Shown piece by piece: positions 4,429 through 19,232 of a stretch of 23,732 nucleotides of DNA. The notes below the pieces were generated by a model that was given only the letters and a program-made list of their open reading frames with translations, was not told where the DNA came from and ran no database searches. A program made the position numbers and the translations under genes. Numbering within the stretch: the stretch's first letter is position 1; the number at the start of each line of letters is the position of its first letter. The DNA comes from a virus, in the IMG/VR virus record IMGVR_UViG_3300024346_000513, positions 1-23,732 of that record. One strand, 5' to 3'.

Positions 4429-5040
4429 ATGGGAAAAAGTTTAGTACTAAATTTTGAGGTACTAAAAACTTTCGATATTTCTGTAGAAGAATTCTTATTT
4501 TTGTATAATATATATACAGATACAATAATTAATATTGATAGAATTGACTTAATTAAATTACAAGAACAACAATTAATAAAAATAATAACAGAAAATGAAA
4601 CGTCAAAGAAATACATTTTAAGAGATAAGTCTATTAAATTAATAGAATTCTTAACTATAGAAATTGAAGGTTCATTAGAATCAGAAAAAAAAACTATTAA
4701 AAAATCAGAACGTGCTATAAATCAAGATATTAAAGGTAGATTAACTGAATTTAGATCTAAATGGAAAGGCTTAAAAGCTGGTTCTATGGGTAGTCAAAAA
4801 TCATGTGAGATGAAACTTACAAGATGGATGAAAGAAAATTCAGAATATTCTTTCGATGATATTCTTAAAGCTGTGGATATTTATTTAGAAAGTTTAAACG
4901 GAGACTATAGATTTTTACAAAGAGCAGATTATTTTGTATTTAAACAAGAAAATAATAGAGAAGAATCTTCTCGCTTATCTGCTTATATAGATGAAATAGG
5001 TATCACCCAATCAGGAGATTGGACAACAACTTTAAAATAA
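4429..5040 (+). CDS. Probable phage replisome organiser / replication initiation protein, 203 aa
   Basis: Directly upstream of the DnaB-like helicase, the usual position of a phage helicase loader or origin-binding replisome organiser. Residues 1-75 form a winged-helix-like N-terminus (VLKTFDISVEEFLFLYNIY, then a segment ending KYILRDK). An acidic/lysine linker follows, then a helical domain (about 95-185) containing FRSKWKGLKAGSMGS and WMKENSEYSFDDILKAVDIY, similar in style to DnaD-like C-terminal domains. Assignment relies on position and domain pattern. It would bring the helicase to the phage origin. The helicase reading frame begins 2 bases after its stop. Confidence 0.6.
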   Translation: MGKSLVLNFEVLKTFDISVEEFLFLYNIYTDTIINIDRIDLIKLQEQQLIKIITENETSKKYILRDKSIKLIEFLTIEIEGSLESEKKTIKKSERAINQDIKGRLTEFRSKWKGLKAGSMGSQKSCEMKLTRWMKENSEYSFDDILKAVDIYLESLNGDYRFLQRADYFVFKQENNREESSRLSAYIDEIGITQSGDWTTTLK

Positions 5041-5042
5041 AT

Positions 5043-5210
5043 ATGAATAGTTTATACACACGAGTCTATGATGACTTAATAGATAGAAGAGCTAGGTTAC
5101 TAGATGGAAAAATAAATTGTATTCCATGGACATTACCTAGATTTGAAGAAGAATTACCTGGAATAGAGAAAGGTAAATATTATTTAATAACAGCGAATAG
5201 TAAAGTGGGT
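5043..5210 (+). CDS. DnaB-like replicative helicase, exon 1 (residues 1-56)
   Basis: The 5' exon encodes 56 residues ending at the sixth residue of Walker A (ANSKVG); the remainder, KT, is encoded at 7628. Unspliced, the frame reads six more codons and stops at TAG (5229-5231), so splicing is required for an active enzyme. I took the ATG at 5043, just after the upstream stop; an in-frame ATG at 5019 would overlap that gene by 22 bases. The exon ends in U (5210), as required for the group I 5' splice site, and in phase 0. It lacks the DnaB N-terminal primase-interaction domain. Confidence 0.85.
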
Positions 5211-5261
5211 AGAATTTGCCCCTATATATAGTAATATATATAGAAAAAAATTAATATTATT

Positions 5262-5960
5262 ATGAAACCAATATATTTAATGGATAATATTCCAGTGCAA
5301 TCTGGAATAAAGATAGAATGTAGGATATCAGGAGTAGTTATCAAAGATGCTATACTTACATTACAACAGAATAGATGGTATATCTGTCAAAATCATCTAA
5401 ATGGTTCTACTTGTAACAATAAATATGGATATATATACTCATACGACATTGGGGCAAGAGTAAAAAATAGTCCTTTTGACCTACAATCACCACTTTTAGA
5501 AATGAAAGTAAATGATCCTTTAAAAGTTACAGAAGGGGCAATAAATACTGTACAATTAAGTAATGGAAAACTTATGACTTATACTTATAGTATTCATAAG
5601 GATTTAGAGATATATAGAATTAAAATATTAAAGTCGAGATCTTTATTTTCAACAACTCGTCATCCAGATTGTTGTGGGTCTATACTATTATTTGGATTTG
5701 AAAGTAGTCCAATTGGATATGGTCGTTTACAAAATCTATCTAAAAGTGAAATGGAAGAAATAAAAGAATATATTAATTCTTTATACCCAGCAAAATTAGT
5801 GCATTTATCACACCACCAACAGACAGCTCGTGAATTTATTACAAAATTAGGGTTTACATCACTTATTGAATATACGAATAATAATTCAGGTAATGTAATA
5901 ACTATATTTCATCATAATAATATTATTTTAAACTCAGAATCCCGATTAGGGGTTAATTAA
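5262..5960 (+). CDS. Intron ORF 1, hypothetical protein of 232 aa
   Basis: Lies between P2 and P3 of the group I intron. No GIY-YIG, LAGLIDADG, HNH or His-Cys endonuclease motif is visible. The N-terminal half (residues 1-115) is beta-rich with CQN and CNNKYGY near residues 42-57. Residues 178-223 contain a hydrophobic strand, then a helix with TKLGF (194-198) and a closing strand with SGNVITIFHHN. That segment aligns by eye with the C-termini of the next two ORFs, suggesting a duplicated domain. It begins 19 bases after P2 and ends 2 bases before the next ORF. It may be mobility-related or a passenger; I cannot tell. Confidence 0.6.
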   Translation: MKPIYLMDNIPVQSGIKIECRISGVVIKDAILTLQQNRWYICQNHLNGSTCNNKYGYIYSYDIGARVKNSPFDLQSPLLEMKVNDPLKVTEGAINTVQLSNGKLMTYTYSIHKDLEIYRIKILKSRSLFSTTRHPDCCGSILLFGFESSPIGYGRLQNLSKSEMEEIKEYINSLYPAKLVHLSHHQQTAREFITKLGFTSLIEYTNNNSGNVITIFHHNNIILNSESRLGVN

Positions 5961-5962
5961 TT

Positions 5963-6400
5963 ATGAAATATTTAGAAGTAAAAAATGGACAACCAATTAA
6001 AGATGTATTCTATAAAATAAATGAATATTCTTACACTGAGTCAGTAAAATTAAAAATAGATATAGATAATTATCCATTTTATGTGGATAATCATGTAGGT
6101 AATTGTAAAGTATGTATTATACAACGTTTACAAGATAAATTACTATATGGAATAGAGGAGAAAGTTATTGATAGGTTAAATGAAGTATTTACATGTATGC
6201 AGAAATTAGTATTTTTAGTTACTAGTACAGATACTGCAGTAGATGGAATTTTATCTAAACATTTTAAACGAATTTATTCTGTAAAAGTTCCTATTGGGTA
6301 TTATAATGGTTATCAATATCACTCAGCATATTTAACTAATGGTAGATATGTAAATCGTGAAGAATATGTAACTAGAATTAAAAGTTCAGCAAAAAAATAA
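5963..6400 (+). CDS. Intron ORF 2, hypothetical protein of 145 aa
   Basis: Second ORF between P2 and P3, starting 2 bases after ORF 1 stops, so the pair is probably translated together. Residues 81-126 follow the shared pattern: hydrophobic strand KLVFLVTS, helix ending LSKHF (97-101), then YYNGYQYHSAYLTN. The N-terminal 50 residues are beta-like with two cysteines (C48, C51) as CKVC. The C-terminus is basic. Its stop codon at 6398-6400 falls immediately upstream of the P3 strand, so the ORF fits the loop without overlapping the catalytic core. Function unknown. Confidence 0.6.
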   Translation: MKYLEVKNGQPIKDVFYKINEYSYTESVKLKIDIDNYPFYVDNHVGNCKVCIIQRLQDKLLYGIEEKVIDRLNEVFTCMQKLVFLVTSTDTAVDGILSKHFKRIYSVKVPIGYYNGYQYHSAYLTNGRYVNREEYVTRIKSSAKK

Positions 6401-6438
6401 TTAATTAGCTAACGGGGAAACCCTTTAATTTTATTGAA

Positions 6439-6738
6439 ATGATTAAAACAACAACAGATTGCTGTGCTTTATGTCAATTAAGTAGAGTAAATAATGATAC
6501 ACCATTAGACTCAATAGCACATAAACTTAAGCAATTAAGGATAGAGATGAGATTAAATACAGAAGTAGGTATTACTACAGGTAGTGGACAAACTGCTGTA
6601 TTTACTATTGTGTCTCCTGGTGAATATAAATTAGAAGCAAATTTAAGGAAACTTGGATTTAAAATGAAACATACTTTTGAACGACGACGTGGATATCCAC
6701 CAGCTGGAGATCTCAAGATGTATATTATAAATTTATAA
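6439..6738 (+). CDS. Intron ORF 3 inserted in loop L5, 99 aa
   Basis: The whole ORF is looped out by P5 (6423-6435 with 6756-6766), a clean insertion that leaves P4-P6 intact. The protein starts with a Cys cluster (CCALC, residues 8-12). Residues 53-99 match the pattern in the two preceding ORFs: a strand, a helix with LRKLGF (69-74) and a final strand KMYIIN after a GYPPAG turn. There is a basic stretch ERRRG. No recognised endonuclease motif. It may be a shorter paralogue of ORFs 1 and 2. Confidence 0.55.
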   Translation: MIKTTTDCCALCQLSRVNNDTPLDSIAHKLKQLRIEMRLNTEVGITTGSGQTAVFTIVSPGEYKLEANLRKLGFKMKHTFERRRGYPPAGDLKMYIINL

Positions 6739-6750
6739 TTATCATAAATT

Positions 6751-7038
6751 ATGGAAATAAAAAAAGACAATCCCGTGCCGTCAATTAAAGATGTATATGA
6801 ATGGATGGAAAGAAATAAAGATTACGATAAAAAGTCATATGGATGTAAAATTCATAAACAAAAGACTCAAATGTTAGAATCTTTATTCCTGATGTTAAAT
6901 ACAATAAAACAATACGGCGTAGAGACTAACAATGAGCAACCTATGTTAAAAAAATGTAAAGGGTGTGGTGATAAAATATTACCAGACGATTATTACAACT
7001 TTGCTTGTCCAGAATGTGGAGAAGAAAATAATAGATAG
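6751..7038 (+). CDS. Intron ORF 4, zinc-ribbon protein of 95 aa overlapping the ribozyme core
   Basis: The C-terminus has two cysteine pairs, CKGC (residues 69-72) and CPEC (87-90), a typical zinc ribbon. The N-terminal 60 residues are helical and basic. The ORF spans ribozyme elements P5', P4', P6, the 5' strand of P7, P3' and both P8 strands, and its TAG stop falls inside P8' (7036-7038). The same bases therefore encode RNA catalysis and, if translated, protein. It could bind nucleic acid. The zinc ribbon argues for real coding; the core overlap is unusual. Confidence 0.55.
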   Translation: MEIKKDNPVPSIKDVYEWMERNKDYDKKSYGCKIHKQKTQMLESLFLMLNTIKQYGVETNNEQPMLKKCKGCGDKILPDDYYNFACPECGEENNR

Positions 7039-7107
7039 GCTGAAGAGATAGTCCGAACTATATGGTGACATATAGAGTTAAACAGAAATGATTTAACCTT
7101 TTAAATA

Positions 7108-7662
7108 ATGAAAAAACAAAGAAAAGAAATAACAGAAGAAAAACTCAGATACGCTACTAATAAGCTTTTAAATTATATCAAAAATCCTATGGCAATGCGT
7201 GATGTAGAAATATTAAGTCATTGGGACAATTATAAAGCTGTGTATAAAACAAATAATCAAAAAACTTATATAGGATATAGATGCTTAGATAAAACTGATA
7301 CAAGACTTTCTATTAAGAAATATAATAAGGAAAAGTATGTATTAAATGAATATAAAGCTATAACTCCTAGATATATACAACAATTTGTATGTAAAGAAAA
7401 AGTAAGTTTACGTCTTATTAATTATATATTAGTAAATTTTATAATAAATAAAAAATTAGTTATTATGCAATGCTCTGATATTAGACAAATCGTTGTACAT
7501 AACAATGACAATTGGGGAGGTACAACTGGTCTAAATATATTTAAAGATAGCGCATATGAAAGAAGATTCAAATCTTTAGTACATGATTATTACTTTGTTA
7601 AAAATTATCTAAAAAGTAACAAAATTGAAAACTCAAATAGCCGATTGGCTATTTCTGTATAA
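7108..7662 (+). CDS. Intron ORF 5, hypothetical protein of 184 aa running into exon 2
   Basis: Begins after the P9.1 hairpin and reads through the 3' splice site (7627/7628) into exon 2 in a different frame from the helicase, stopping at 7662. Full-length protein can be made only from unspliced RNA. The protein is basic, with a lysine-rich N-terminus (MKKQRKEITEEK), YKTNNQKTYIGYRCLD near residues 50-65, and aromatic C-terminal helices (HDYYFVKNYLKSN). I see no canonical homing-endonuclease motif, though size, charge and position would suit one, and I cannot exclude a divergent type. Confidence 0.55.
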   Translation: MKKQRKEITEEKLRYATNKLLNYIKNPMAMRDVEILSHWDNYKAVYKTNNQKTYIGYRCLDKTDTRLSIKKYNKEKYVLNEYKAITPRYIQQFVCKEKVSLRLINYILVNFIINKKLVIMQCSDIRQIVVHNNDNWGGTTGLNIFKDSAYERRFKSLVHDYYFVKNYLKSNKIENSNSRLAISV

Positions 7663-8563
7663 TACTATTCAACAAGTTATTGACAAACAATTAAATATAA
7701 AGTTAAAAATATTTTATTTTACTTTAGAGATGTCTAAAGAAGAAAAGATGTTATCTGCTTTTTCTAATATATTATACATAAAAGAAGGAGTAAGAATATC
7801 ACCTAAAGACCTTAGAAGTACTAAAGCAGATAATATATTAAGTGCTGAATATTTAGAACTAATACAAAAATATAAAATTTACTTTGATAAAATTGAAGAA
7901 ATAGTAGAATTTATAGATGATATTAGAAATCCTACAGGTATTTATAAAATGGTTAGATCCTATGCGTATGCTAATGGAGTTCAACATAAAAAAATTGTAA
8001 ATATTAAAGGAAATGAGATAGAAATTGATGATTATTATGAACCTAACGACCCAGAAGAGTATGTTATGGTTTTTATTGATCATATAAGTTTAATCTCTAC
8101 AGAAACAGATGAAGGAAGAAAAATGAATTTACATGAATCAATTGTAAAACTTTCATCTGATTATTTAATAAGACTAAGAAATAAGTATAAATACATACCA
8201 GTAGTTATACAACAGCAAGCATCTGCGCAAGAATCAGTTGAAAACATGAAAGTAGGAAGGTTAAAGCCTTCACTTGATGGGTTAGGAGATTGTAAACTTA
8301 CACAACGTGATGCAAATGTTATCTTAGGACTCTTTAGTCCATTTAGACATGAGATTAAAGAATATCATGGATATGATGTTACTTATTTTAAAGACAATAT
8401 ACGTTTTTTAGAGATCTTAGGAGGAAGAGAAGGAGGAGGAGGAACTATTTCACCTTTATACTTCGATGGAGCAGTTAATTATTTTAAAGAATTACCTAAA
8501 CCACATGACCAAGATAATATGAATAAAGTGTATACATTTATAAATAGTAATATTAGAAGTTAA
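7628..8563 (+). CDS. DnaB-like replicative helicase, exon 2 (residues 57-367)
   Basis: Encodes the remainder of a RecA-fold SF4 helicase that unwinds the phage fork. The first codons complete Walker A (KTQIADWLF). Motif H1a is YFTLEMSKEE, Walker B is VMVFIDHISL, H3 is YIPVVIQQQA and H4 is RDANVILGLF, in the order expected for DnaB/T7 gp4-type helicases. The spliced protein is 367 aa, the ATPase domain alone. The upstream TTG at 7625 in the same frame is not a start but the end of the intron. A gene of the replisome-organiser type precedes exon 1. Confidence 0.9.
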   Translation, partial: KTQIADWLFLYNTIQQVIDKQLNIKLKIFYFTLEMSKEEKMLSAFSNILYIKEGVRISPKDLRSTKADNILSAEYLELIQKYKIYFDKIEEIVEFIDDIRNPTGIYKMVRSYAYANGVQHKKIVNIKGNEIEIDDYYEPNDPEEYVMVFIDHISLISTETDEGRKMNLHESIVKLSSDYLIRLRNKYKYIPVVIQQQASAQESVENMKVGRLKPSLDGLGDCKLTQRDANVILGLFSPFRHEIKEYHGYDVTYFKDNIRFLEILGGREGGGGTISPLYFDGAVNYFKELPKPHDQDNMNKVYTFINSNIRS

Positions 8564-8575
8564 ATTTAATAATTT

Positions 8576-8911
8576 ATGAATGAATTAGGAGAACGAAAGA
8601 ATGAAGGTAAATTAAAGTGGAGTTTAGTAAGTTGGAGTGCATTAAAACCATTAGTAAGAGTATTAATGTTTGGTGCTGAAAAATATGATGACCATAATTG
8701 GAAAAAAGGTCTGAAATATACAGAAACTTGCGAAAGTTTACAAAGGCATTTAAATGCATTTATAGAAGGAGAAGATAATGATCCTGAAAGCAAAATAGAA
8801 CATGTAGGACATATATTATGTAATGCTATGTTTCTATCTTATATGTACTCGTTTAGAAAGGATCTAGATGATAGATTTGTAGATGAAAATTTTAAAAAAG
8901 ATGAGTCGTAA
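8576..8911 (+). CDS. Phage dATP/dGTP diphosphohydrolase-like protein (DUF5664 type), 111 aa
   Basis: Small all-helical nucleotide pyrophosphatase-like protein. Recognisable signature: NEGKLKWSLV (about residues 9-18), VLMFGAEKYDDHNWKKG (29-45), then LQRHLNAFIEGEDNDPES and HVGHILCNAMFL, which carry the Glu/Asp/His positions expected to hold metal. Known phage members remove pyrophosphate from deoxypurine triphosphates and adjust the dNTP pool. It follows the helicase by 12 bases and precedes another nucleotide-related gene. Substrate preference here is inferred from the family. Confidence 0.75.
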   Translation: MNELGERKNEGKLKWSLVSWSALKPLVRVLMFGAEKYDDHNWKKGLKYTETCESLQRHLNAFIEGEDNDPESKIEHVGHILCNAMFLSYMYSFRKDLDDRFVDENFKKDES

Positions 8912-8918
8912 AAAGAAA

Positions 8919-9287
8919 ATGAAAAAAATTTATTTAGCCATTTCATATTCAAGTATGAAGGAAAGTAGTTATGTTCAAGCTAATGAGGCTACAGCTATTA
9001 TAATGAATAAAGGAATAAATGTATTTAGTCCTATTAGTCATTGTCATATAATAGCCAAAGAACATCAATTACCTACATCGTGGGATTATTGGATGCAAAT
9101 AGATTTTCAATTTATTGATTGGGCAGAAGAAGTATGGGTACTTATACCAAAAGAAGGTGTACAATACTTACATGACTCACCTGGCGTAAATGCAGAGATT
9201 AAATATGCTAAAAATAAAAATTTGCCAATAAACTTTATAAAGATAGTAGATGGTGAAGTACAATTTATAGATTATATTTGGTCATAG
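8919..9287 (+). CDS. DUF1937 / nucleoside 2-deoxyribosyltransferase-like protein
   Basis: Rossmann-like fold of the nucleoside 2-deoxyribosyltransferase superfamily: N-terminal strand KIYLAISYSS, helix with nucleotide-handling residues, then GINVFSPISHCH, SWDYWMQIDFQFIDWAEEVW (central acidic strand region) and SPGVNAEIKYAKNKN, whose glutamate is the usual catalytic or binding position. The family acts on deoxynucleosides or nucleotides and is common in phages, but DUF1937 itself is uncharacterised to my knowledge. I placed the start at 8919; in-frame ATGs at 8901 and 8883 would overlap the upstream gene. Stop TAG is followed at once by TAA. Confidence 0.7.
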   Translation: MKKIYLAISYSSMKESSYVQANEATAIIMNKGINVFSPISHCHIIAKEHQLPTSWDYWMQIDFQFIDWAEEVWVLIPKEGVQYLHDSPGVNAEIKYAKNKNLPINFIKIVDGEVQFIDYIWS

Positions 9288-9309
9288 TAAATTAAAAAAA
9301 TAATAATAC

Positions 9310-9753
9310 ATGAAAAAAACAGATGTAATAACAAAAGAAGATATAGAATTATACTATAAAAAATGTAGAAAGATAAGATTTAATTCTACAACAACTCACA
9401 CAGTAGAGCAAATATTAAGTAGATTAATATATATAAATGAGTCTTATCCAAGTGCTACTGTTTATAGTAGAGGAGGTTTTCATTGTGATGCGGAGAAATA
9501 TAGATCACTAGATGATATAATTAAAGTAGTAAAATACTATCATCCAGAACTTACTGTAAAACAAATCTTAATTGATATATCAAAATATAAAGATGGTGAT
9601 CTATATTTTAGATATTGTCCTTCTATAAAAAAATATAATTTTGCTGGAAGAGCTCATTATGCTGGGTCTTTTAAAGCAGGAATGAAATACTTTAATATGA
9701 AAGGACAAGGATTTAGGAATTGTGATATTACATTACATCAGTTAATTTCATAA
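9310..9753 (+). CDS. Hypothetical protein, 147 aa
   Basis: Unrecognised. Mixed alpha/beta composition, basic overall, with many Tyr, Lys and Gly residues in the C-terminal half (YNFAGRAHYAGSFKAGMKYF, about residues 113-132). The N-terminal 75 residues look helical (TVEQILSRLIYINESYP). No metal-binding cluster, Walker motif or membrane segment. It sits between nucleotide-metabolism genes and the recombination ATPase in the same transcriptional direction. Confidence 0.65.
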   Translation: MKKTDVITKEDIELYYKKCRKIRFNSTTTHTVEQILSRLIYINESYPSATVYSRGGFHCDAEKYRSLDDIIKVVKYYHPELTVKQILIDISKYKDGDLYFRYCPSIKKYNFAGRAHYAGSFKAGMKYFNMKGQGFRNCDITLHQLIS

Positions 9754-9783
9754 TAGAGGATGGTAGGACGGAAAAGATGATGA

Positions 9784-10554
9784 ATGATTGATTTACCAAA
9801 TAAAAAAACTAAAGCAGAAAGAGTAAATCCAAAATCGATGATTATATTTAGCCAGCCTAAGATGGGAAAAACCACAGTAGTAGCAGGATTAGATAATTGT
9901 TTGATTATAGATTTAGAAAAAGGTAGCCACTTTGTGGAGGCCTTGAAATTTGATGTTATAAGAATTGCAAATGAAGCGCAAAAATTACCAATTGTTATTT
10001 TAAAACAATTAATAGAAACTATTAAGAAGGAAAATAAAGAACGTGGGGAATATGTATACAAGTATCTTACAATAGATACAGTAACAGCCCTTGAAGAAAT
10101 TGTTTTACCTCTAGCTAATAAAATGTATAGAGATACGCCTATGGGACGTAATTGGGTAGGAGAAGATGTTACAACTCTACCAAATGGTGCAGGATATAGA
10201 TATACAAGATTAGCTCTTTCTACAGTTCTTAATGAACTTGAAGAAATATGTGATACATTAATTATATTAGGACATGTTAAAGATAAATTAGTTGAAAAAG
10301 ATGGAAAAGAAATGAATGAGAGAGGATTAGCCTTAACAGGAAGACAATCATCAATTCTTTGTTCTCAAGTAGACGCAGTAGGTTATCTCTTTAGAGAAGA
10401 TGAAAATACTGTTATTAATTTTGCAGCATCTGAAAGTTTACTTTCAGGAGCACGATGTGAACATTTAAAAGGGCAAGAAATAATAGTTGCAACGTCTGAT
10501 GAGACAGGACAAATAAAAGTAGATTGGTCTCAAATATTTATTAATAAAGATTAA
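9784..10554 (+). CDS. Sak4-like RecA-fold ATPase (single-strand annealing/recombination)
   Basis: ATP-dependent recombination protein of the Sak4/RAD51-core type, which in phages promotes strand annealing together with an SSB. Walker A is SQPKMGKT (residues 23-30); Walker B is YLTIDT (D98). The sequence IIDLEKGSHFVEAL (41-54), the conserved GHVKDK near residue 159 and LTGRQSSILCSQVDAVGYL (residues about 180-198) match the AAA_24-type phage ATPase pattern. Length 256 aa is normal. The next gene is a presumed ssDNA-binding protein, the usual partner. An in-frame TGA-adjacent overlap of short ATGs precedes it; 9784 gives the family-like N-terminus. Confidence 0.85.
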   Translation: MIDLPNKKTKAERVNPKSMIIFSQPKMGKTTVVAGLDNCLIIDLEKGSHFVEALKFDVIRIANEAQKLPIVILKQLIETIKKENKERGEYVYKYLTIDTVTALEEIVLPLANKMYRDTPMGRNWVGEDVTTLPNGAGYRYTRLALSTVLNELEEICDTLIILGHVKDKLVEKDGKEMNERGLALTGRQSSILCSQVDAVGYLFREDENTVINFAASESLLSGARCEHLKGQEIIVATSDETGQIKVDWSQIFINKD

Positions 10555-11197: not shown

Positions 11198-12232
11198 ATG
11201 AAAATAGATTTAAATAAAAAAATAATAACAAAAGAAGGGCTTTTACGAAAAATTACAGATATAGATATCTATCGTCATTATATAGGAAAAAATGTTGAAT
11301 TAGGTGTAAAACTTAAATCATTTCTTAGAGATGAAGACGACCCATCATTTGGATTTTTTATAGGAGACAGTGGGGAAATTTGTTTTAATGATTTCTTATT
11401 AGGTGGAGGTGACTGTGTAAAATTTGTTCAATTGAAATTTGGACTAAATTTTCATGAAGCTTTGAGTAAAATAGCAATTGATTTAAAATTAGATCATTTG
11501 TTTATAGTGAAGAAAACATTTAAAACAGAATCATCATATAATCCTGATACATTTGAAGATAGAGATAAAATCTTAAGTAAAGCTAATAACTTTAAATTAG
11601 GAAAAAAATCTAGAGAATGGGAAGCAAGAGATTTGGCATATTGGTTAAAATTTGGAATAGATCATGAAACATTAATTAAATATAATGTTGAACCTATTTC
11701 TTATATATTTATAAACCAAAAGCCTATTTTAGCTGAAAAATTTGCATATGCATTTACAGAATTTAAAGATAATGTAGAAACATATAAAATTTATCAACCA
11801 TACAGTGAAAGATATAAATGGATAAATAATCATAATCATTCTATTTGGCAAGGATGGAATCAATTACCTGGTATTGGTAAAACTTTAATCATAACTAAAT
11901 CATTAAAAGATGTAATGGCTATATCTAATATTTTAGGTATACCATCAGTATCATTACAGTCTGAATCAACTCTCCCAAAAGCTCATATTATAGATGAATT
12001 AAAAGAAAGATTTAAACAAATATTTATTTTATATGATAACGATTATGATAAAGAAGAAAATTGGGGCAGACAATTAGGGAATGATATTTCTGAAGCATTT
12101 TATATACCTCAAATTGAAATTGATGAAAAATATAAAGCAAAAGACTTCAGTGATCTAGTAGCTAAATTTGGAGCCTATAGAGCTAAAATTATATTAGACG
12201 GAATATTAGAACAAAGAATAACACCATTTTAA
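11198..12232 (+). CDS. Diverged DnaG-type primase with TOPRIM domain, 344 aa
   Basis: RNA primer synthesis at the fork is the likely role. Residues 20-110 resemble the DnaG zinc-binding domain (FLRDEDDPSFGFF, then GEICFNDFLLGGGDCVKFV), but the four metal cysteines are absent. Residues 220-310 resemble TOPRIM: LIITKSLKDVMAISNILG, where the usual TEG glutamate position reads TKS, then IFILYDNDYDKEENWGRQLG carrying the DxD motif (YDND). The catalytic Glu substitution is seen in some phage primases as I recall, but activity should not be assumed. The gene lies directly downstream of a strong terminator and upstream of the amide-ligase block. Confidence 0.75.
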   Translation: MKIDLNKKIITKEGLLRKITDIDIYRHYIGKNVELGVKLKSFLRDEDDPSFGFFIGDSGEICFNDFLLGGGDCVKFVQLKFGLNFHEALSKIAIDLKLDHLFIVKKTFKTESSYNPDTFEDRDKILSKANNFKLGKKSREWEARDLAYWLKFGIDHETLIKYNVEPISYIFINQKPILAEKFAYAFTEFKDNVETYKIYQPYSERYKWINNHNHSIWQGWNQLPGIGKTLIITKSLKDVMAISNILGIPSVSLQSESTLPKAHIIDELKERFKQIFILYDNDYDKEENWGRQLGNDISEAFYIPQIEIDEKYKAKDFSDLVAKFGAYRAKIILDGILEQRITPF

Positions 12233-12246
12233 AAAACAATAAAAAT

Positions 12247-12645
12247 ATGTTAGTAGCAGTTTATGGATCTTTAAGAAAAGGTCTTAGTAATTATAAAGGG
12301 TATTTAACTAAATCTGTTTACTTAGGTAAATTTGATTCAGAACCTGTATTTACACTAAAAAGTTTAACACATTATCCTGCCTTAATTAGAGGAGGTAAAA
12401 CTTCTGTAGTAATGGAAGTATTTCGAGTAACAGAAAATACTTTAAATCAATTAAATATATTAGAAGGATTTTACGAAGAAAAAGATAAATTTAATCATTA
12501 TAATAGAGAAATTATTAAAACTCCTTATGGTGATGCATTCGTATATTTATATAATTGTGAAGAACGAATTAAAGATGCAACAGTAGTTAAATCAGGAGAT
12601 TGGGTAGAATTTTTAGCTAACGCAAAATTATATAATAATGCTTAG
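12247..12645 (+). CDS. Gamma-glutamylcyclotransferase-like protein (GGCT/AIG2 fold), 132 aa
   Basis: First gene of the amide-ligase block. The phosphate/substrate loop YGSLRKG (residues 6-12) and the catalytic glutamate in LNILEGF (E73) are intact, followed by HYNREII, matching the family pattern. GGCT enzymes release gamma-glutamyl or epsilon-aminoacyl groups as cyclic products (5-oxoproline-type), so here it could remove or recycle a gamma-glutamyl adduct made by the neighbouring ligases. Small soluble protein, normal length. Stop is TAG, and the next gene starts 8 bases before it, implying translational coupling. Confidence 0.85.
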   Translation: MLVAVYGSLRKGLSNYKGYLTKSVYLGKFDSEPVFTLKSLTHYPALIRGGKTSVVMEVFRVTENTLNQLNILEGFYEEKDKFNHYNREIIKTPYGDAFVYLYNCEERIKDATVVKSGDWVEFLANAKLYNNA

Positions 12646-13471
12646 ATACTTTAGACCAAGAATTAGAAGTAGACATCCATCACATGCACCATTGAGAGTA
12701 AGAGGAACTTTTCCATTATTCCCATTTAGATCAGTTATTAGATTTGGATCTACAACAGAAGTACCAGCTGCTACAGTAGAAATTAATTCTATTGAATCAG
12801 TAAAGAATTCTTCTAGTAAATTAAAAATGAAAACGTGTTTTAAAAACGATAATGTTAGTACAGCAATTTGGTTTAGATACAATCAAGCTACAGGTGGATT
12901 TATCAATCAAATAACAGAAGATGAGCTACATATTAGTGAATTACCTTTTCCTATTATCTCAAAATCTGAATTTGGAAGTAGGAACCAAGGTAATAAAAAA
13001 CACAACTCTTTAGAAGAATTAGAAGATTGGCTGGCAGGAAAAGAAACTACTAAATATATATTTGAAAAATATTATAATTTTAGTAGAGAATACCGCCTAC
13101 ATATTACAGAGAATGGTTGTTTCTATACTTGTAGAAAAATGTTAAAAGCAGACACTGCTGAAGAAGATAAGTGGTATCGTAATGATGAACATTGTGTATG
13201 GGTTTTAGAAGAAAATGAATTATTTGATAAACCTAGTAATTGGAATGTAGTAGTAGATGAATCTGTAAAAGCTTTAAAAGCTGTTGGATTAGATATTGGT
13301 GCAGTAGATTTAAGAATACAGTCTGCAACTAATAATGCAGGAACAAGACGTGAAAATCCTGAATTTATTATAGTTGAAATAAATTCAGCTCCATCATTTG
13401 GGGATATTACAATAACTAAATATATAGAAGAATTAACTAAATTATTACCACAAAAAAATGGAAAACAATAA
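12638..13471 (+). CDS. ATP-grasp amide/peptide ligase-like protein, 277 aa
   Basis: Predicted to activate a carboxylate with ATP and join it to an amine. The N-terminus is Arg/Pro-rich and ends IRFGSTT (residues 34-40), resembling the pre-grasp segment of phage ATP-grasp proteins. FPIISKSEFGSRNQG (about 105-119) supplies the ATP-binding strand and glycine-rich loop, SREYRLHI (about 149-156) the EYR motif, and FIIVEINSAPSFGD (about 247-260) the metal-binding E-x-N motif. The two-gene overlap (8 bases at the start, 14 at the end) ties it to GGCT and GAT-I. Substrate unknown; the family covers peptide and amino-acid ligases. Confidence 0.8.
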   Translation: MLRYFRPRIRSRHPSHAPLRVRGTFPLFPFRSVIRFGSTTEVPAATVEINSIESVKNSSSKLKMKTCFKNDNVSTAIWFRYNQATGGFINQITEDELHISELPFPIISKSEFGSRNQGNKKHNSLEELEDWLAGKETTKYIFEKYYNFSREYRLHITENGCFYTCRKMLKADTAEEDKWYRNDEHCVWVLEENELFDKPSNWNVVVDESVKALKAVGLDIGAVDLRIQSATNNAGTRRENPEFIIVEINSAPSFGDITITKYIEELTKLLPQKNGKQ

Positions 13472-14150
13472 AAAACGACAAATTAGAATAGGAGTTGAGT
13501 TTGAATTAACAGAAGAAGAAAGAAAATTTTTTGAATCTAGATTCGATATAAAAACTATACTATTTTCTGATTTAATTAAACATAGAAAAGAGATTAGTGT
13601 TAATCTATTATATTTTAATGGAGGAGCAGATGTTAGTCCTAATTTATATGGACAAAAAAAAGGAAAATTTACATCAGTATCTGAAGAAAGAGATGCATTA
13701 GCAGAAAGAGTTATAAATTCTTTTAGTAATGTGCCAAAATTAGGTATTTGTAGAGGAGCACAATTACTTACTGTGTTCTCAGGAGGAGAATTAATTCAAC
13801 ATGTTGAAGGACATGCTATAAGTAAATTACATAAAATTGATGTATTATATGAAGGACGTAGTCAAGTTACAACTATGGATATTACTTCTACACATCATCA
13901 AATGATGTACCCCTTTAATTTAATTAATAATAAATACAAGTTATTAGCTTGGTCTAGTAAATTTTTAGGTAATATCTATTTAAATGGAGAGGATAAACAA
14001 ATACCACTTCCTGATAAATTTGTAGAGCCAGAAATTGTATATTACCCATTTACAAGAGGTTTAGCTATACAAGGGCATCCAGAATATAGTGATTGTCCTA
14101 CTAGTACAAAAGATACTTGTTTAGACTTAATAGAACAATATTTACTTTAA
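13458..14150 (+). CDS. Class I glutamine amidotransferase / C26 gamma-glutamyl hydrolase
   Basis: Cysteine hydrolase of the PuuD/peptidase C26 group that splits gamma-glutamyl amide bonds. Catalytic nucleophile C98 is in GICRGAQ, and the His-Glu pair is in QGHPE (H207, E209). The NGGADVSPNLYG segment (54-65) and THHQM (145-149) are also characteristic. It could deliver ammonia from glutamine or, more likely given the PuuD-like form, hydrolyse a gamma-glutamyl conjugate. Its start overlaps the ATP-grasp gene by 14 bases. Length (230 aa) is normal for a stand-alone enzyme. Confidence 0.9.
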   Translation: MENNKKRQIRIGVEFELTEEERKFFESRFDIKTILFSDLIKHRKEISVNLLYFNGGADVSPNLYGQKKGKFTSVSEERDALAERVINSFSNVPKLGICRGAQLLTVFSGGELIQHVEGHAISKLHKIDVLYEGRSQVTTMDITSTHHQMMYPFNLINNKYKLLAWSSKFLGNIYLNGEDKQIPLPDKFVEPEIVYYPFTRGLAIQGHPEYSDCPTSTKDTCLDLIEQYLL

Positions 14151-14169
14151 TATTTAATAAATTTATATA

Positions 14170-14976
14170 ATGATTACAAATGTTTTAATAGGAGCAGATC
14201 CAGAGTTGTTTCTTGAGAAAAATGAAGAAATTGTGTCTGCAGAAGGATTAATAGGTGGTACTAAACATCATCCTAAATATATTAGCGAGGAAGGACATGC
14301 TATACAAGAAGATAATGTTATGATTGAATTTAATATTCCAGCATCTAAGACTAAGGAAGAATTCAGGACAAACATAAATTTTGTAAAAGATTATTTAGAA
14401 GCTTTAGTTAGAATACAAGGTGGTAAATTAAATTTTCAAGCGGCAGCTGAACTAGACCCTAAATATTTACAAACTCCCCAGGCAAAATTATTTGGTTGTG
14501 ATCCAGATTTAAATGTTCATTTAAAAGATTTAAATGAACCACCTATGGCAGGGGGAAGATTAAGAACTTGTGGTGGACATATTCATATTGGGTATGATAA
14601 TCCTACACAAGAAATTAGTGAAAAAATAGTATATGCAATGGATTTTATTTTAGGATTAGAATCTATAACTCTAGATAAAGACATCAGAAGAAGAGAAATG
14701 TATGGTAATGCAGGATGTTTTAGATTTAAAAAATATGGAGTGGAATATAGAACCTTATCTAATTTTTGGATAGCTACAGATGAATTAATTGAATGGGCGT
14801 TTAATAAAACGTTAGAAGCAATTGAGTTAGTTAATTCTGGCCAAATTGATGAATTAATAGAAAGTTTCTCTAAGGATGTTAAATATGTTATAGATAACAA
14901 TGATAAAGAAGCAGCAAATGCACTATTAATAAAAATAAAAGAAAACATAAAAGCAAAATTAATAATACAAAAATAA
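14170..14976 (+). CDS. Phage COOH-NH2 ligase, type 2 (glutamine-synthetase-like fold), 268 aa
   Basis: Resembles the phiEco32-type amide ligases. The N-terminal GADPELF (8-14) provides an acidic metal/ATP site; QEDNVMIEFNIP (46-57) carries the D-x5-E pattern; CGGHIHIGY (134-142) is the paired-histidine motif, and VEYRTLSNFW (191-200) the arginine-bearing strand. These are the motifs of the glutamine-synthetase-like amidoligase fold, which forms amide bonds using ATP. It is the first of two such ligases in this block, and they differ enough to suggest two substrates or successive steps. The true substrate is unknown. Confidence 0.85.
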   Translation: MITNVLIGADPELFLEKNEEIVSAEGLIGGTKHHPKYISEEGHAIQEDNVMIEFNIPASKTKEEFRTNINFVKDYLEALVRIQGGKLNFQAAAELDPKYLQTPQAKLFGCDPDLNVHLKDLNEPPMAGGRLRTCGGHIHIGYDNPTQEISEKIVYAMDFILGLESITLDKDIRRREMYGNAGCFRFKKYGVEYRTLSNFWIATDELIEWAFNKTLEAIELVNSGQIDELIESFSKDVKYVIDNNDKEAANALLIKIKENIKAKLIIQK

Positions 14977-14982
14977 TAAAAT

Positions 14983-16830
14983 ATGTGTGGAATATTTGGA
15001 TGGGCAGGTAAAGACCCAAAACAATTTGATAAAACAAAATTAGATATATTAGGTATATTTAATGAAGTAAGAGGAGTACATTCTTGTGGTATTTCTACAG
15101 ATGGAGACATAGCAATAGGAATTGACAGTAATAAAATTTATAGAAATTTTTTATCTAATGTTGGGTATGAAACACCTAAAAAAATTCCAGTAGTTATAGG
15201 TCACACAAGACAAAGTACTTATGGAGCTCATACTATTGAAAATGCACATCCATTTGGATTTGGAGAATTAGCTGGCAATTATGAATTTGTTGGAGTACAT
15301 AATGGTACTTTATTGAATCATGGTGATATAGCCACAGAATTTGAGATTAAAGATACTGCTGTTGTAAAAAAATCAGCTACCAGTTATGTCCATAGATCTA
15401 AAATTGATAGTGAAATTATATTAGAGACATTATTTAAGACTAAAAATTTTAAAGTTTTAAGTATTTATAATGGTGCAGCAGCATTAGTTTGGACAGATTT
15501 ACATAAACCAAATGTTATATATTGCTATCATGGTGAGTCCAGAAAAAGAGATTTTGTAAATTCTCCTGTAGAAGAAGAAAGACCATTATTTTATTTTCAA
15601 GAGAAGAAAAATAGTATGTATATATCATCATTAAGTGATAGTTTAAAATCAATTGGAGCTACTGATCAAACCTTACATTCTTTCGATACAAATACCGTAT
15701 ACAAAATTACAGATGGTGATGTTAGTAAAGCGGAGAAAACAAAAATTAGTAGAGTAACTAATTTTCAAACTGGAACACCTTATGAATCAAAAAAGCCATC
15801 ATCCACTACTCCAAGAGAGGGGGCAAATCACGAAAGAGGTATAGACGACGATGATTATCCTCAATATAAATTTTCAAATTATAGCCCTAGAGTACGTGGT
15901 TCAGCTGACAGTAATACTGGTAGAAATAATTTATATTTTAATCTTTACACAGAATCTCCAGTACAAAATGTAAATTACTATCAAAGTAAAGTTTATATGA
16001 ATAAACTTCGCTATTGGAGAAATGGACATGTAATTACTGGGTGTTATATATTTGTACCTACATATGGATTTATATTTGTAGGCGAATCTATAGCTGCAGC
16101 GGAGACTAGATTTTATGATTTTGTAAATAAACTATTCTTTAATGGTGAATTTAGAGATGGTGGTGATTTAACAGATAAAGAAAAACAAGATGCATTTATG
16201 CCATTTGTACATAAAACTGGATCTGAAATTATCAAACCACCATTGTATTTTATGTATGATGGGATTAGAATTAAAACAGCTTTTGACTATCTTGCTTGTT
16301 TAGATATGGAGCGTAAAAAAGAAACTCCTTTCAACTATGAGCAGTTATCTCATTGTTCTGCACATCCTATATTAAATATTAAAACAAATTTTAAAGGATT
16401 TGATGCACAAAATATTCTGTATGAAGGTGTGCCAGTAACTGATACCGTTTGTCCATTAGGGGCAGAGAAAATCTATGAGATAGTAGATGGTAATTGTATT
16501 AAGGCAACTCCAATAGAGAATTTTCAAAAATATGAGAATACCAAATCAGATAGTACTCAAATTAAATTAGACCTAGTAACAGATAATTTAACAAAGATTG
16601 AAGAGGCATACGAAGGGCAAACAGCAGAATTAGCTATAATTCACTCTGTTGAGAATGATTTATTAGAGGATGATCTTAATGATATGTTCAAAGAATCATT
16701 AAGAAAATTTCCTAATTATATAAAAAGGTTACAAGATTATAATGAACCAAAGGCTACTAAAGCTAAGTTAATTATGGAAGTATTTATGAAAAAAACAACA
16801 AATTTACTTATAAAAGATTTAAAAGAGTAA
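14983..16830 (+). CDS. Class II (Ntn) glutamine amidotransferase with long unknown C-terminal region
   Basis: Starts MCGIFGW, so Met removal exposes the N-terminal nucleophile Cys2. GHTRQSTYG (73-81), HNG (106-108) and DSE (142-144) match the glutamine-binding residues of GlmS-type domains, so ammonia release from glutamine should be intact. The GATase domain ends near residue 240. The remaining 370 residues are unlike the SIS, synthetase or phosphoribosyltransferase partners of known enzymes. Two related turns, YKITDGD (about 240) and YEIVDGN (about 489), hint at repeats. It lies between the two amidoligases and may feed ammonia to one of them; the C-terminal region could be an acceptor or docking domain. 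Confidence 0.9.
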   Translation: MCGIFGWAGKDPKQFDKTKLDILGIFNEVRGVHSCGISTDGDIAIGIDSNKIYRNFLSNVGYETPKKIPVVIGHTRQSTYGAHTIENAHPFGFGELAGNYEFVGVHNGTLLNHGDIATEFEIKDTAVVKKSATSYVHRSKIDSEIILETLFKTKNFKVLSIYNGAAALVWTDLHKPNVIYCYHGESRKRDFVNSPVEEERPLFYFQEKKNSMYISSLSDSLKSIGATDQTLHSFDTNTVYKITDGDVSKAEKTKISRVTNFQTGTPYESKKPSSTTPREGANHERGIDDDDYPQYKFSNYSPRVRGSADSNTGRNNLYFNLYTESPVQNVNYYQSKVYMNKLRYWRNGHVITGCYIFVPTYGFIFVGESIAAAETRFYDFVNKLFFNGEFRDGGDLTDKEKQDAFMPFVHKTGSEIIKPPLYFMYDGIRIKTAFDYLACLDMERKKETPFNYEQLSHCSAHPILNIKTNFKGFDAQNILYEGVPVTDTVCPLGAEKIYEIVDGNCIKATPIENFQKYENTKSDSTQIKLDLVTDNLTKIEEAYEGQTAELAIIHSVENDLLEDDLNDMFKESLRKFPNYIKRLQDYNEPKATKAKLIMEVFMKKTTNLLIKDLKE

Positions 16831-16836
16831 TTGATA

Positions 16837-18513
16837 ATGGAAGAATTAATAAAAAAAACTGAAATGGTTACTACTATAGATGGAACTACACATCCTAGGA
16901 CAAATTGTAGAAAAATGGGAGGAGAATTTTTCACTAAAGGAGATGTAACTATAGAAAATTCAGGGCAATGTTATTATATTAATAGAAAATACTATAAGTA
17001 TAATACTGGTTATATTGTTTATGATCATTCAATAGAAGAATATGTAGTAAAAAATGTATCTAATTTAACTTACGGTATAATTGCATTTGATAAAGATAAT
17101 ATGTGTTGTTTTGGATATTACTCTAATAAAGATTCTGAAATAGTAGTTAAAACTAAGGAAGACACATACAATTGTATATCAGAAAATATTATCCCTCAAA
17201 ATTTATATATTAGAGATGTAAATACTGGTGTATTTATAGATAGATTAGCGTTTAGTGTAAAAACTTTATTCTTGCCTCCTGTTATAGATAGAAATATAAA
17301 AAATAGTCTACCTTATGATTCAAGAGGTGGTATGGATTCTTTAATTTATGCACATTCTTTATACAAACCAACTATTAATAAAACTGTTGAGAAATTTGCA
17401 CCTGCATTAAAGGATTTAACTTTTGGAGTAGAATTTGAAACAGTTAATGGAGCTGTACCAGCTTTTAAATGTAAGCAATTAGGCTTAATGCCATTACGAG
17501 ATGGTAGTATTGCAGGATTAGAATATGCAACAATTCCATTGCAAGGAGAAAAAGGGTTACAAACTTTTGTTAATGGAATTACTGAATTACGTAATTATAC
17601 AACATATAATAAAGACTGTTCTGTTCATTTTCATATTGGAAATATTCCAAGAACTGAAGAATTTATGTTAGCATTGTTTAAAACATTATGTGCATTACAA
17701 GATCAGATGTATGCTATATTTCCACTTTATAAAAAATATAATTTTGGGGTAAAAAGAAAGCATTATACACAACCTTTTCCTTTTGACGAAACTATTTTTC
17801 AGATGGATAAATCTATAAATGGAGATAATATAAAAAATAATTTTGATATATTATATAAATTCTTATCTATGGGGCAATCCTACAGACAAGTAAAATATTC
17901 ATTAGATAATGTAGAGGGACACCCTTCTGATCCAAGAGGTAACAGTAAGTGGAATATAAGAACTAGATATTATTGGGTTAACTTTATTCCATTATTATTT
18001 GGAAATAAGGAAACTATTGAATTTAGGTTACATACTCCGACTTATGATAGTAATAAATTAGTAAATTATTTACTTTTATGTACTACTATTGTAAATTTTG
18101 TGAAAGATAATACAGATAGAATCTTAAAAGATCCTACTATATTATTAGGAATAAATTTACAAAATTTATTCTATAAATTAGAAGAAAATAGTAGTGGTGA
18201 GTCAATGAGAAAACTTGTTGATGATTTAATTACTTATTTTTCAATGCGACGTGACCATGTTTATAGAGAAAATAAACTTGGTAAAATAGAAGGGGATGAG
18301 GATAGTTTTAAGCCTAGAAACACTATTGTATGGGAAGATAAAAATCCTGCATATGAAATTGAAGTTACTAGGTTAAAAAGAAAAGGTAACAGCGAACATT
18401 ATATATCATATGATGCAGTAAGAGCTAGAGAAGAACTTATGCAAAATTTAGCTAATCCTGGTGGATTCTTTTTAGATAGGAATCCAGTTCCAGAAATACG
18501 TCTTGATGAATAA
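16837..18513 (+). CDS. Second amidoligase (glutamine-synthetase-like) with novel N-terminal domain, 558 aa
   Basis: Residues 195-420 hold the amidoligase motifs: FGVEFE (196-201), RDGS (221-224) followed by LEYATIP, CSVHFHIG (261-268) and IEFRLHTPTYD later, in the order seen in the glutamine-synthetase-like amidoligase family. It should form an amide bond at ATP cost. The first 190 residues are an additional beta-rich domain I do not recognise (cysteines near 45, 90 and 113). Several Tyr-rich short repeats occur there. I placed the start at the ATG at 16837, not the upstream TTG at 16831. It closes the block and is followed directly by the UDG-like gene. Confidence 0.85.
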   Translation: MEELIKKTEMVTTIDGTTHPRTNCRKMGGEFFTKGDVTIENSGQCYYINRKYYKYNTGYIVYDHSIEEYVVKNVSNLTYGIIAFDKDNMCCFGYYSNKDSEIVVKTKEDTYNCISENIIPQNLYIRDVNTGVFIDRLAFSVKTLFLPPVIDRNIKNSLPYDSRGGMDSLIYAHSLYKPTINKTVEKFAPALKDLTFGVEFETVNGAVPAFKCKQLGLMPLRDGSIAGLEYATIPLQGEKGLQTFVNGITELRNYTTYNKDCSVHFHIGNIPRTEEFMLALFKTLCALQDQMYAIFPLYKKYNFGVKRKHYTQPFPFDETIFQMDKSINGDNIKNNFDILYKFLSMGQSYRQVKYSLDNVEGHPSDPRGNSKWNIRTRYYWVNFIPLLFGNKETIEFRLHTPTYDSNKLVNYLLLCTTIVNFVKDNTDRILKDPTILLGINLQNLFYKLEENSSGESMRKLVDDLITYFSMRRDHVYRENKLGKIEGDEDSFKPRNTIVWEDKNPAYEIEVTRLKRKGNSEHYISYDAVRAREELMQNLANPGGFFLDRNPVPEIRLDE

Positions 18514-18515
18514 TT

Positions 18516-19232
18516 ATGAAATTACAATTAATAGATGAATTTGCATTAGATTATGAGTTTAAAGAAATTTTAGGTAGTGATTGGCAGAGTATGCTAGAAG
18601 AACCATTACTTAAAACTGAATATATGAAGAATCTAATGCTTTTCTTGGAAGAATCTTATAAACAAGGAAATTTATATCCTAAAAAAAAAGATGTATTTAA
18701 AACATTTAGAAATATAAAATTTTCTAATGTTAAAGTAGTTATCTTAGGAAGTGAACCATATAGGGACTTTAGAAGTATGGGTATCCCACTAGGTAATTAT
18801 GAAAAATTTGGGGTAAATTACTCCCCTGAATTAATATCTTGGAATAGGGGAATTGAAAGAGAGTTTTATGATGGATTAAGAATGTATAATGAACCAAGTT
18901 TAGCTACTTTAGGTGCACAAGGTGTATTACTATTAGATAGTGCTTTAACATCTACAGATAAAAAAGCATTTGATCATAGTATATATTGGAAAACTTTTAT
19001 TAGAGAAGTATTAAAAGTGATATGTGAATGGCATCCAGCTACTATATTTGTTTTCTTAGGGAAAGAGGCTCAAGAATTTGTTCCAGTAATTGGGAAAACT
19101 GGATATAAATTTTTATGGGAACACCCTACGGAAGCTATAGCAGCTAAAAAAAACTGGGATGCATCTGTGCTGAGGGAAGTAAATTCTATTTTAAATTATC
19201 TAAATGGAAAGACAGAAGAAATTTATTGGTAA
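18516..19232 (+). CDS. Diverged family 1 uracil-DNA glycosylase-like protein, 238 aa
   Basis: Aligns along its length with UDG family 1: DWQSMLEEP, LYPKKKDVFKTFR, VKVVILGSEPYR, GAQGVLLLDSALTS, WHPATIFVFLGKEAQ and HPTEA. Key positions differ from the E. coli enzyme: water-activating Asp64 is Glu80, uracil-reading Asn123 is Asp141, stacking Phe77 is Leu92, and the HPSPLS loop reads HPTEAI; His187 (His203) and Tyr66 (Tyr82) remain. It may be weakened, changed in specificity or non-catalytic (DNA-binding or protein partner). It follows the amide-ligase block by 2 bases and precedes a resolvase, fitting DNA replication and repair. Confidence 0.85.
   Translation: MKLQLIDEFALDYEFKEILGSDWQSMLEEPLLKTEYMKNLMLFLEESYKQGNLYPKKKDVFKTFRNIKFSNVKVVILGSEPYRDFRSMGIPLGNYEKFGVNYSPELISWNRGIEREFYDGLRMYNEPSLATLGAQGVLLLDSALTSTDKKAFDHSIYWKTFIREVLKVICEWHPATIFVFLGKEAQEFVPVIGKTGYKFLWEHPTEAIAAKKNWDASVLREVNSILNYLNGKTEEIYW

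Follow-up and report, generated by a model that had tools for sequence, protein, structure and literature searches.

In a 23,732-base (23.7 kb) fragment of a crAss-like phage, taken from an IMG/VR virus record and called the window below in its full length, we found that positions 12247-18513 hold a real, well-conserved and rearranged variant of a known phage cassette of predicted function. Six intact genes lie there head to tail on the + strand, encoding a gamma-glutamylcyclotransferase-like protein (GGCT), an ATP-grasp ligase, a peptidase C26, a first amidoligase (AO1), a class II glutamine amidotransferase (GATase; GATII) and a second amidoligase (AO2). An earlier description made from the letters alone (the sequence-only reading) had proposed these six open reading frames (ORFs), and all of them are present; the first three overlap by 8 and 14 bases, and the later ones are separated by 19, 6 and 0 bases. 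The best explanation of the whole, held with slightly more confidence than doubt, is that the block is the form which the phage amidoligase cassette takes in crAss-like phages and encodes a soluble pathway that makes and trims amides.

Protein families of the block

Profile searches recognized five of the six proteins through Pfam (GGCT, C26, AO1, GATII and AO2); the ATP-grasp protein had no Pfam match and was recognized through PHROG, in agreement with the families named by the sequence-only reading. PHROG matches of the block proteins ranged from 1e-17 to 2e-76, with 3e-14 for GATII. The key catalytic residues, which had been described as intact, are also conserved when each position is judged over about 100 homologues per family. 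No membrane-strength hydrophobic stretch was found in the six proteins (maximum 19-residue mean 1.4), and the pathway would therefore be cytosolic.

Table 1. Genes of the block and the two genes that border it.
Feature	Length (residues)	Position	Strand	Matches and remarks
GGCT, gamma-glutamyl(amine) cyclotransferase-like, GGACT/AIG2 fold	132	12247..12645	+	PF06094 5e-17
ATP-grasp amino-acid ligase, RimK/cyanophycin-synthase/Ddl-like	277	12638..13471	+	phrog_2599 1e-30
Peptidase C26/class I GATase fold, probable gamma-glutamyl-amide hydrolase	230	13458..14150	+	PF07722 4.5e-15
AO1, phiEco32-like COOH-NH2 ligase type 2	268	14170..14976	+	PF14395 7e-11; phrog_3815 2e-76
GATII, class II glutaminase N-domain and module-specific C-terminal domain	615	14983..16830	+	PF13522 4e-8
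AO2, Amidoligase_2, ~190-residue N-terminal beta-rich domain and GS/GCS-fold ligase	560	16831..18513	+	PF12224 2.7e-6; phrog_2443 2e-35
DNA primase, Toprim type		11198..12232	+	phrog_12622 4e-67; 44% identical to phi14:2 primase; upstream slot border, outside the pathway
Uracil-DNA glycosylase-like		18516..19232	+	phrog_12143 1e-33; PF03167 2e-4, slightly below cut-off; downstream slot border, outside the pathway

GATase families match GATII over residues 1-230 only, and this N-terminal domain is PurF/GlmS-like (PurF 3e-16). Its glutamine-site residues are kept over 107 homologues (C2 in 96%; R76, N107, G108 and D142 in 100%). GATII thus has all the class II glutaminase residues that GlmS and PurF have but, unlike these enzymes, carries neither a sugar isomerase nor a phosphoribosyltransferase domain, which supports its place in an amide pathway. 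The structure model of its C-terminal half (predicted local distance difference test, pLDDT, 87) matched no solved structure, sugar isomerase and phosphoribosyltransferase domains included, and among viral models it matched only the GATII of phages phi14:2 and cr108_1.

AO2 is listed as starting at a TTG (16831); an ATG follows in frame at 16837. Its conserved residues are the metal-binding Glu and His positions E201, E203, H266 and H268 together with R399. When the AlphaFold model of AO2 (pLDDT 89) was compared with Foldseek, the best match was gamma-glutamylcysteine synthetase (GCS; GshA, E 5e-4, prob 0.98), followed by the glutamine synthetase (GS) homologue 4hpp (prob 0.94), YbdK and glutamine synthetases, with the depupylase Dop lower down. 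As judged from this model, AO2 is a GS/GCS-fold ligase at the superfamily level. AO1 has no sequence relative in the PDB; Pfam places it in the GS superfamily, and D10, E12, E53, H137 and R194 are conserved.

The profile of the ATP-grasp protein, built from 25 homologues, matched PDB entries of cyanophycin synthase (3e-11), glutamate ligases (2e-10), RimK (1e-9) and Ddl (2e-7), in a range that extends to 5e-6; its conserved residues are K61, E151, R153, K167, D224, E247 and N249. Profile matches of GGCT include YtfP (2.8e-28) and the AIG2-like GGACT structures 3jub/3jud (~1e-8), and Y6, G7 and E73 are conserved. For the C26 protein, the class I GATase/C26 fold given by the sequence-only reading stands, with a conserved Cys-His-Glu triad (C98, H207, E209); by sequence the protein is closer to gamma-glutamyl hydrolases (Lin1909, PuuD and relatives) than to ammonia-donor subunits. 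It matched PuuD at 6e-5 by sequence and, as a profile, Lin1909 at 1e-24 and PuuD at 6e-12.

These relationships bear on one alternative, that the block gamma-glutamylates polyamines or other small amines, as PuuA-PuuD and PauA-SpuA do, and so shifts free polyamines during packaging or counters a toxic amine. The Puu/Spu pathway has in common with the block the logic of a GS-fold ligase and a PuuD-like C26 hydrolase with a Cys-His-Glu triad; the PuuD-like relatives of the C26 protein and the 4hpp match of AO2 fit this, and GGACT enzymes are known as a family to act on gamma-glutamyl-amines. The block nevertheless lacks the oxidase and dehydrogenase of the Puu route, its three ligases exceed what that route needs and it adds a GATase, and the best fold match of AO2 is GshA. 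We therefore regard a polyamine pathway as quite improbable.

One gene set in two arrangements

IMG/VR loci were retrieved with AO1 and C26 queries, profiles were built and the order of genes was tabulated; after removal of near-duplicates, 60 loci with at least 6.5 kb on either side of AO1 made up the linkage set. Since loci were picked by AO1 or C26, the counts show linkage and not the frequency of the block. Scattered genes in relatives had been named as the outcome that would speak against the sequence-only reading; instead, AO2, GATII and the ATP-grasp gene accompany AO1 in 60/60 non-redundant loci, always on a single strand. GGCT is present in 50 and the C26 gene in 47 of the 60, GATII adjoins AO2 in 56, and ATP-grasp adjoins GGCT in 28. 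This clustering exceeds chance by a wide margin. Among the surveyed ORFs there was no fusion of a glutaminase with a ligase gene, and, when looked for, no small-protein family that could serve as a conserved substrate recurred within the block in most loci.

Two very different gene orders retain this one gene set. The crAss-type order runs primase, GGCT, ATP-grasp, C26, AO1, GATII, AO2, uracil-DNA glycosylase (UDG), RusA and exonuclease, with GGCT or C26 sometimes duplicated, and the Podovirus-type order runs (C26), AO1, a protein of ~220 residues, AO2, GATII, ATP-grasp and GGCT. AO2 mostly has 300-430 residues in Podovirus-type loci and about 450-640 in most crAss-type loci, in which its metal-binding motif begins near residue 190. 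The gene for the ~220-residue protein has 28 members, which immediately precede AO2; in 23 cases the gene is placed exactly between AO1 and AO2. We considered whether the N-terminal domain of crAss AO2 could be this protein in fused form; hhalign, which compares sequences only, found no similarity, so the idea has no sequence support.

Over 86 loci the tree distances of GATII and AO2 gave the tightest correlation of any pair (rho 0.89; 0.91 in the primase-bearing subset), above the correlation of either one with the primase in that subset (0.77 and 0.76). ATP-grasp correlates with both at ~0.8, and AO1, GGCT and C26 less. We infer from this a co-varying core of GATII, AO2 and ATP-grasp. Because GATII and AO2 are neighbors in 56/60 loci and also co-vary most tightly, GATII is probably the nitrogen (ammonia) donor that feeds AO2.

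The podovirus cassette was reportedly treated in earlier accounts, Hardies 2013 and Iyer 2009. An equivalent seven-gene cassette is described for RIO-1, PSA-HP1, phiEco32, PaP3/LUZ24 and tf (Duhaime 2017; PMC5498523, PMC11945000), so the block is less new than the sequence-only reading had implied. Shared with the window are AO1 (PF14395), AO2 (PF12224), the class II GATase, the RimK-like ATP-grasp ligase and GGCT, in one co-directional run beside primase and replication genes. The window block (GGCT-ATP-grasp-C26-AO1-GATII-AO2) differs in its order, in having the C26 enzyme and in the extra ~190-residue N-domain of AO2. In addition, the ~220-residue gene, of phrog_4877 type, is absent from the window and from crAss-type loci and present in 28 loci of the other order, and the GATII C-domains of window and podoviruses have no detectable similarity. 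Within the Crassvirales, phi14:2 and cr108_1 likewise have these families between primase and UDG; phi14:2 retains GGCT-ATP-grasp-AO1-GATII-AO2 and lacks the C26 gene, and cr108_1 lacks GGCT and has two additional unknown genes. Our literature search for amidoligase with crAss gave one match, which concerned Pseudomonas phages.

In podoviruses this set has been named the 'peptidoglycan modification cassette', with a predicted role in superinfection exclusion or lysis for RIO-1-like, phiEco32, PaP3 and LUZ24-like cassettes (PMC5498523, PMC11945000, PMC10580990). On that account, stem-peptide precursors would be amidated or extended, which would block superinfection or tune lysis, and the reach of the ATP-grasp profile to D-Ala-D-Ala ligases agrees with it. 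Glutaminase-linked amidation of stem peptides is moreover established chemistry (MurT/GatD, AsnB/LtsA). However, no Mur-ligase, transporter, sugar or other wall gene was recognized in or beside the block, in the window or in annotated relatives, and unlike MurT-GatD none of the six block proteins gave a Mur-ligase match. The block is surrounded by DNA-metabolism genes, and the literature searched gave no experimental test of the wall reading. We treat a wall substrate as a possibility, though as less likely than not.

Among public phage records AO1 occurs in 315, AO2 of the window type in 5 and a related primase in 141, so that the block is widespread and yet rare among named crAss-like phages. 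E. coli phages Bas86-Bas88 have ATP-grasp relatives, and Bas86 has the cassette. A search with AO1 of one genome per bacterial and archaeal species gave 4 loci, which at this sensitivity makes it essentially a phage family; no AO2 was found on plasmids.

Some loci of the survey merit separate mention. GGCT and/or C26 duplicates lie within the block in L019, L090, L164, L165, L170, L171 and L174, hinting at differing substrate specificities. In Leptolyngbya phage Lbo-JY46 (L002, 1500-13497) the block directly follows the annotated genes PncB (nicotinate phosphoribosyltransferase) and PrsA (phosphoribosyl pyrophosphate synthetase) and includes two class I GATase-like genes. One contig binned as an archaeon (L131) was a candidate for archaeal occurrence, which would have been a case against the wall reading; it is phage-like, looks misbinned and was not used. 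It holds a large-phage-like stretch with AO1, GATII-AO2 about 4 kb away and neighbors that on visual inspection look like adenylosuccinate synthetase, IMP dehydrogenase/GMP reductase and PhoH, and is possibly from a phage with a 2-aminoadenine (Z) genome.

A putatively exchangeable slot between primase and UDG/nuclease genes

The primase-UDG interval is filled differently in other crAss-like phages. In crAss001 and cr111_1 its genes encode a ThiF protein (PF00899, 8e-16 for crAss001) and a weakly matching JAB-like protease, with unknown genes besides; in cr116_1 the interval is occupied by rIIA/rIIB. A scan based on the primase, with sampling biased towards window-like primases, counted by profile 45 amidoligase blocks, 5 ThiF-JAB cassettes and 1 rII cassette where both borders of the locus were in view. 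No slot combined an amidoligase block with ThiF-JAB. In L188, PHROG recognizes rIIA and rIIB, with the far border out of view. Some of the loci classed as 'other' have an AAA+ ATPase and a phrog_1314 protein. Together these observations suggest that the interval from primase to UDG/nuclease is an exchangeable cassette slot, which does not imply equal function of its occupants.

The ThiF (E1-like)/JAB-like cassette has 4-5 genes and runs from primase to UDG/nuclease in L132 (crAss001, 4583-9805), L133, L193, L195, L198 and L203; its ThiF protein matches the PADLOC models E1-E2 and BilD weakly. The AAA+ ATPase and phrog_1314 protein follow the primase in L176, L180, L202 and L206, as recognized by PHROG in L176 and L202 and by size and position in L180 and L206.

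The occupants of the slot raise the question of whether the block, in parallel to E1/JAB systems, modifies a protein of the host or phage by conjugation with amino acids or small tags, for host takeover or counter-defence. In favor of this, RimK, an enzyme that adds glutamate to the C-terminus of a protein, is among the closest relatives of the ATP-grasp ligase, the slot of relatives contains ThiF and a JAB-like protease or rIIA/rIIB, and protein modification was proposed by Burroughs et al. for other phage ATP-grasp ligases (PMC4431377). Yet a common slot means exchange of cassettes and not a common function, the block revealed neither a protein substrate nor a small tag protein, and none of the six proteins matched a PADLOC defence model. 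Unlike in E1/JAB systems, there is no ThiF match among the six, ThiF being found instead in the crAss001 slot. Protein conjugation seems to us rather unlikely, and a more specific form of it more speculative still: the slot would be a host-conflict slot in which the amidoligase block is a functional alternative to ThiF(E1)-JAB and rIIA/rIIB, acting not as a wall modifier but as a non-ubiquitin conjugation and deconjugation system, which would disarm defence or redirect the host by tagging a protein of host or phage.

The position of the block between primase and UDG could also be accounted for by DNA base hypermodification, with an amino acid or amide attached to a modified base. The neighbors of the block do fit, being replication and UDG genes in crAss-like phages and primase/helicase genes in podoviruses, but no base hydroxymethylase, base kinase or pyrophosphorylase was recognized among the genes scanned, and UDG has the same position in phages without the block, such as crAss001. 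We give this explanation very little credence.

Proposed pathway

Because a conserved unit combines three ATP-dependent ligases with three enzymes whose targets are glutamine or gamma-glutamyl bonds, amide synthesis followed by trimming is the natural reading. From the gene set, its conserved catalytic residues, the fold of AO2, the pairing of GATII with AO2 and the joint conservation of the genes, we infer the direction of each reaction, the transfer of ammonia, the order and timing of the steps and the acceptor as follows. The pathway would be active during genome replication. GATII would cleave glutamine and pass the ammonia to its neighbor AO2, or might serve as an acyl-transfer partner. 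On the same molecule, AO1 and the RimK-like ATP-grasp ligase would join amino acids or gamma-glutamyl units to carboxylates, and the C26 hydrolase and the GGACT-type cyclotransferase would strip gamma-glutamyl groups, as deprotection or editing. Such a trimming step would parallel that of BtrG, which follows BtrJ in butirosin synthesis, or of PuuD, which follows PuuA. The BtrJ/BtrG pair, in which an ATP-grasp ligase adds and a cyclotransferase removes gamma-Glu, has its counterpart in the ATP-grasp and GGCT-fold proteins of the block; unlike in butirosin synthesis, no acyl carrier protein was identified, the small ORFs of the window having been scanned in part, and GS-fold ligases and GATases are added. 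A peptide of the host, or a peptide-like host molecule, probably serves as the acceptor; candidates are stem-peptide precursors, a protein and a small amine. The claim of the sequence-only reading that the block makes and edits an amide or gamma-glutamyl linkage is supported by the conserved unit, and its list of acceptors is not narrowed, since peptide, stem peptide, protein and small amine are not separated.

Several points weigh against this make-and-trim pathway. AO2 reaches low TM-scores (0.25-0.35) against solved ligases, and its match therefore holds at the superfamily level only. C26 and GGCT are missing from some loci and duplicated in others, and both may therefore be optional. AO1 co-varies more weakly with the rest (0.40-0.46), and the distance correlations come from fast trees in which phage phylogeny is controlled by the primase comparison only.

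A generic auxiliary role, in which nitrogen or glutamate would be recycled for host or phage, has also been put forward: Planctomycetes phage ZRK32 carries a GATase, an amidoligase, a glutathione synthase and GGCT, and a role in nitrogen metabolism was proposed (PMC10945688). That claim is based on growth effects of the whole phage, and simple nitrogen scavenging needs no multi-ligase set with co-varying partners, which makes this explanation a highly improbable one.

Other features of the window

The window also encodes a DNA polymerase, a dATP/dGTP pyrophosphohydrolase, Sak4, the primase, UDG, RusA and PD-(D/E)XK genes. Its gene content is like that of Cellulophaga phage phi14:2 (Crassvirales, Steigviridae), with a like order from Sak4 to exonuclease and UDG at the same position in phi14:2 and crAss001. 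The closest named matches are phi14:2, which is the nearest isolate (54% identity for ATP-grasp and 37% for AO2), Leptolyngbya phage Lbo-JY46 and the gut crAss-like phage cr108_1.

At 5019-8563, a DnaB-type helicase gene is split inside its Walker A motif (..ITANSKVG | KTQIADW..) by an insertion of ~2.4 kb that contains several ORFs. Both halves form one gene in 55 surveyed ORFs, and the junctions of relatives are alike (..GTGGGT/AGAATTTGCCCC and ..AACAAAATTG/AAAACT). A GGGU/GCCC pairing that could form P1, together with a 3' G, suggests a group I-like intron; Rfam gave no match.

Significance

Many unrelated bacteria have phages with this cassette, among them E. coli, Pseudomonas, Bacteroidota and cyanobacteria, and the labels 'peptidoglycan modification' and 'superinfection exclusion' have been repeated in the literature on prediction alone. 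The co-varying core, the GS/GCS fold of AO2 and the swap with E1/JAB or rII cassettes provide concrete, testable alternatives to these labels. The value of the block lies in the question of its substrate and in the slot-swapping context in which it is found.

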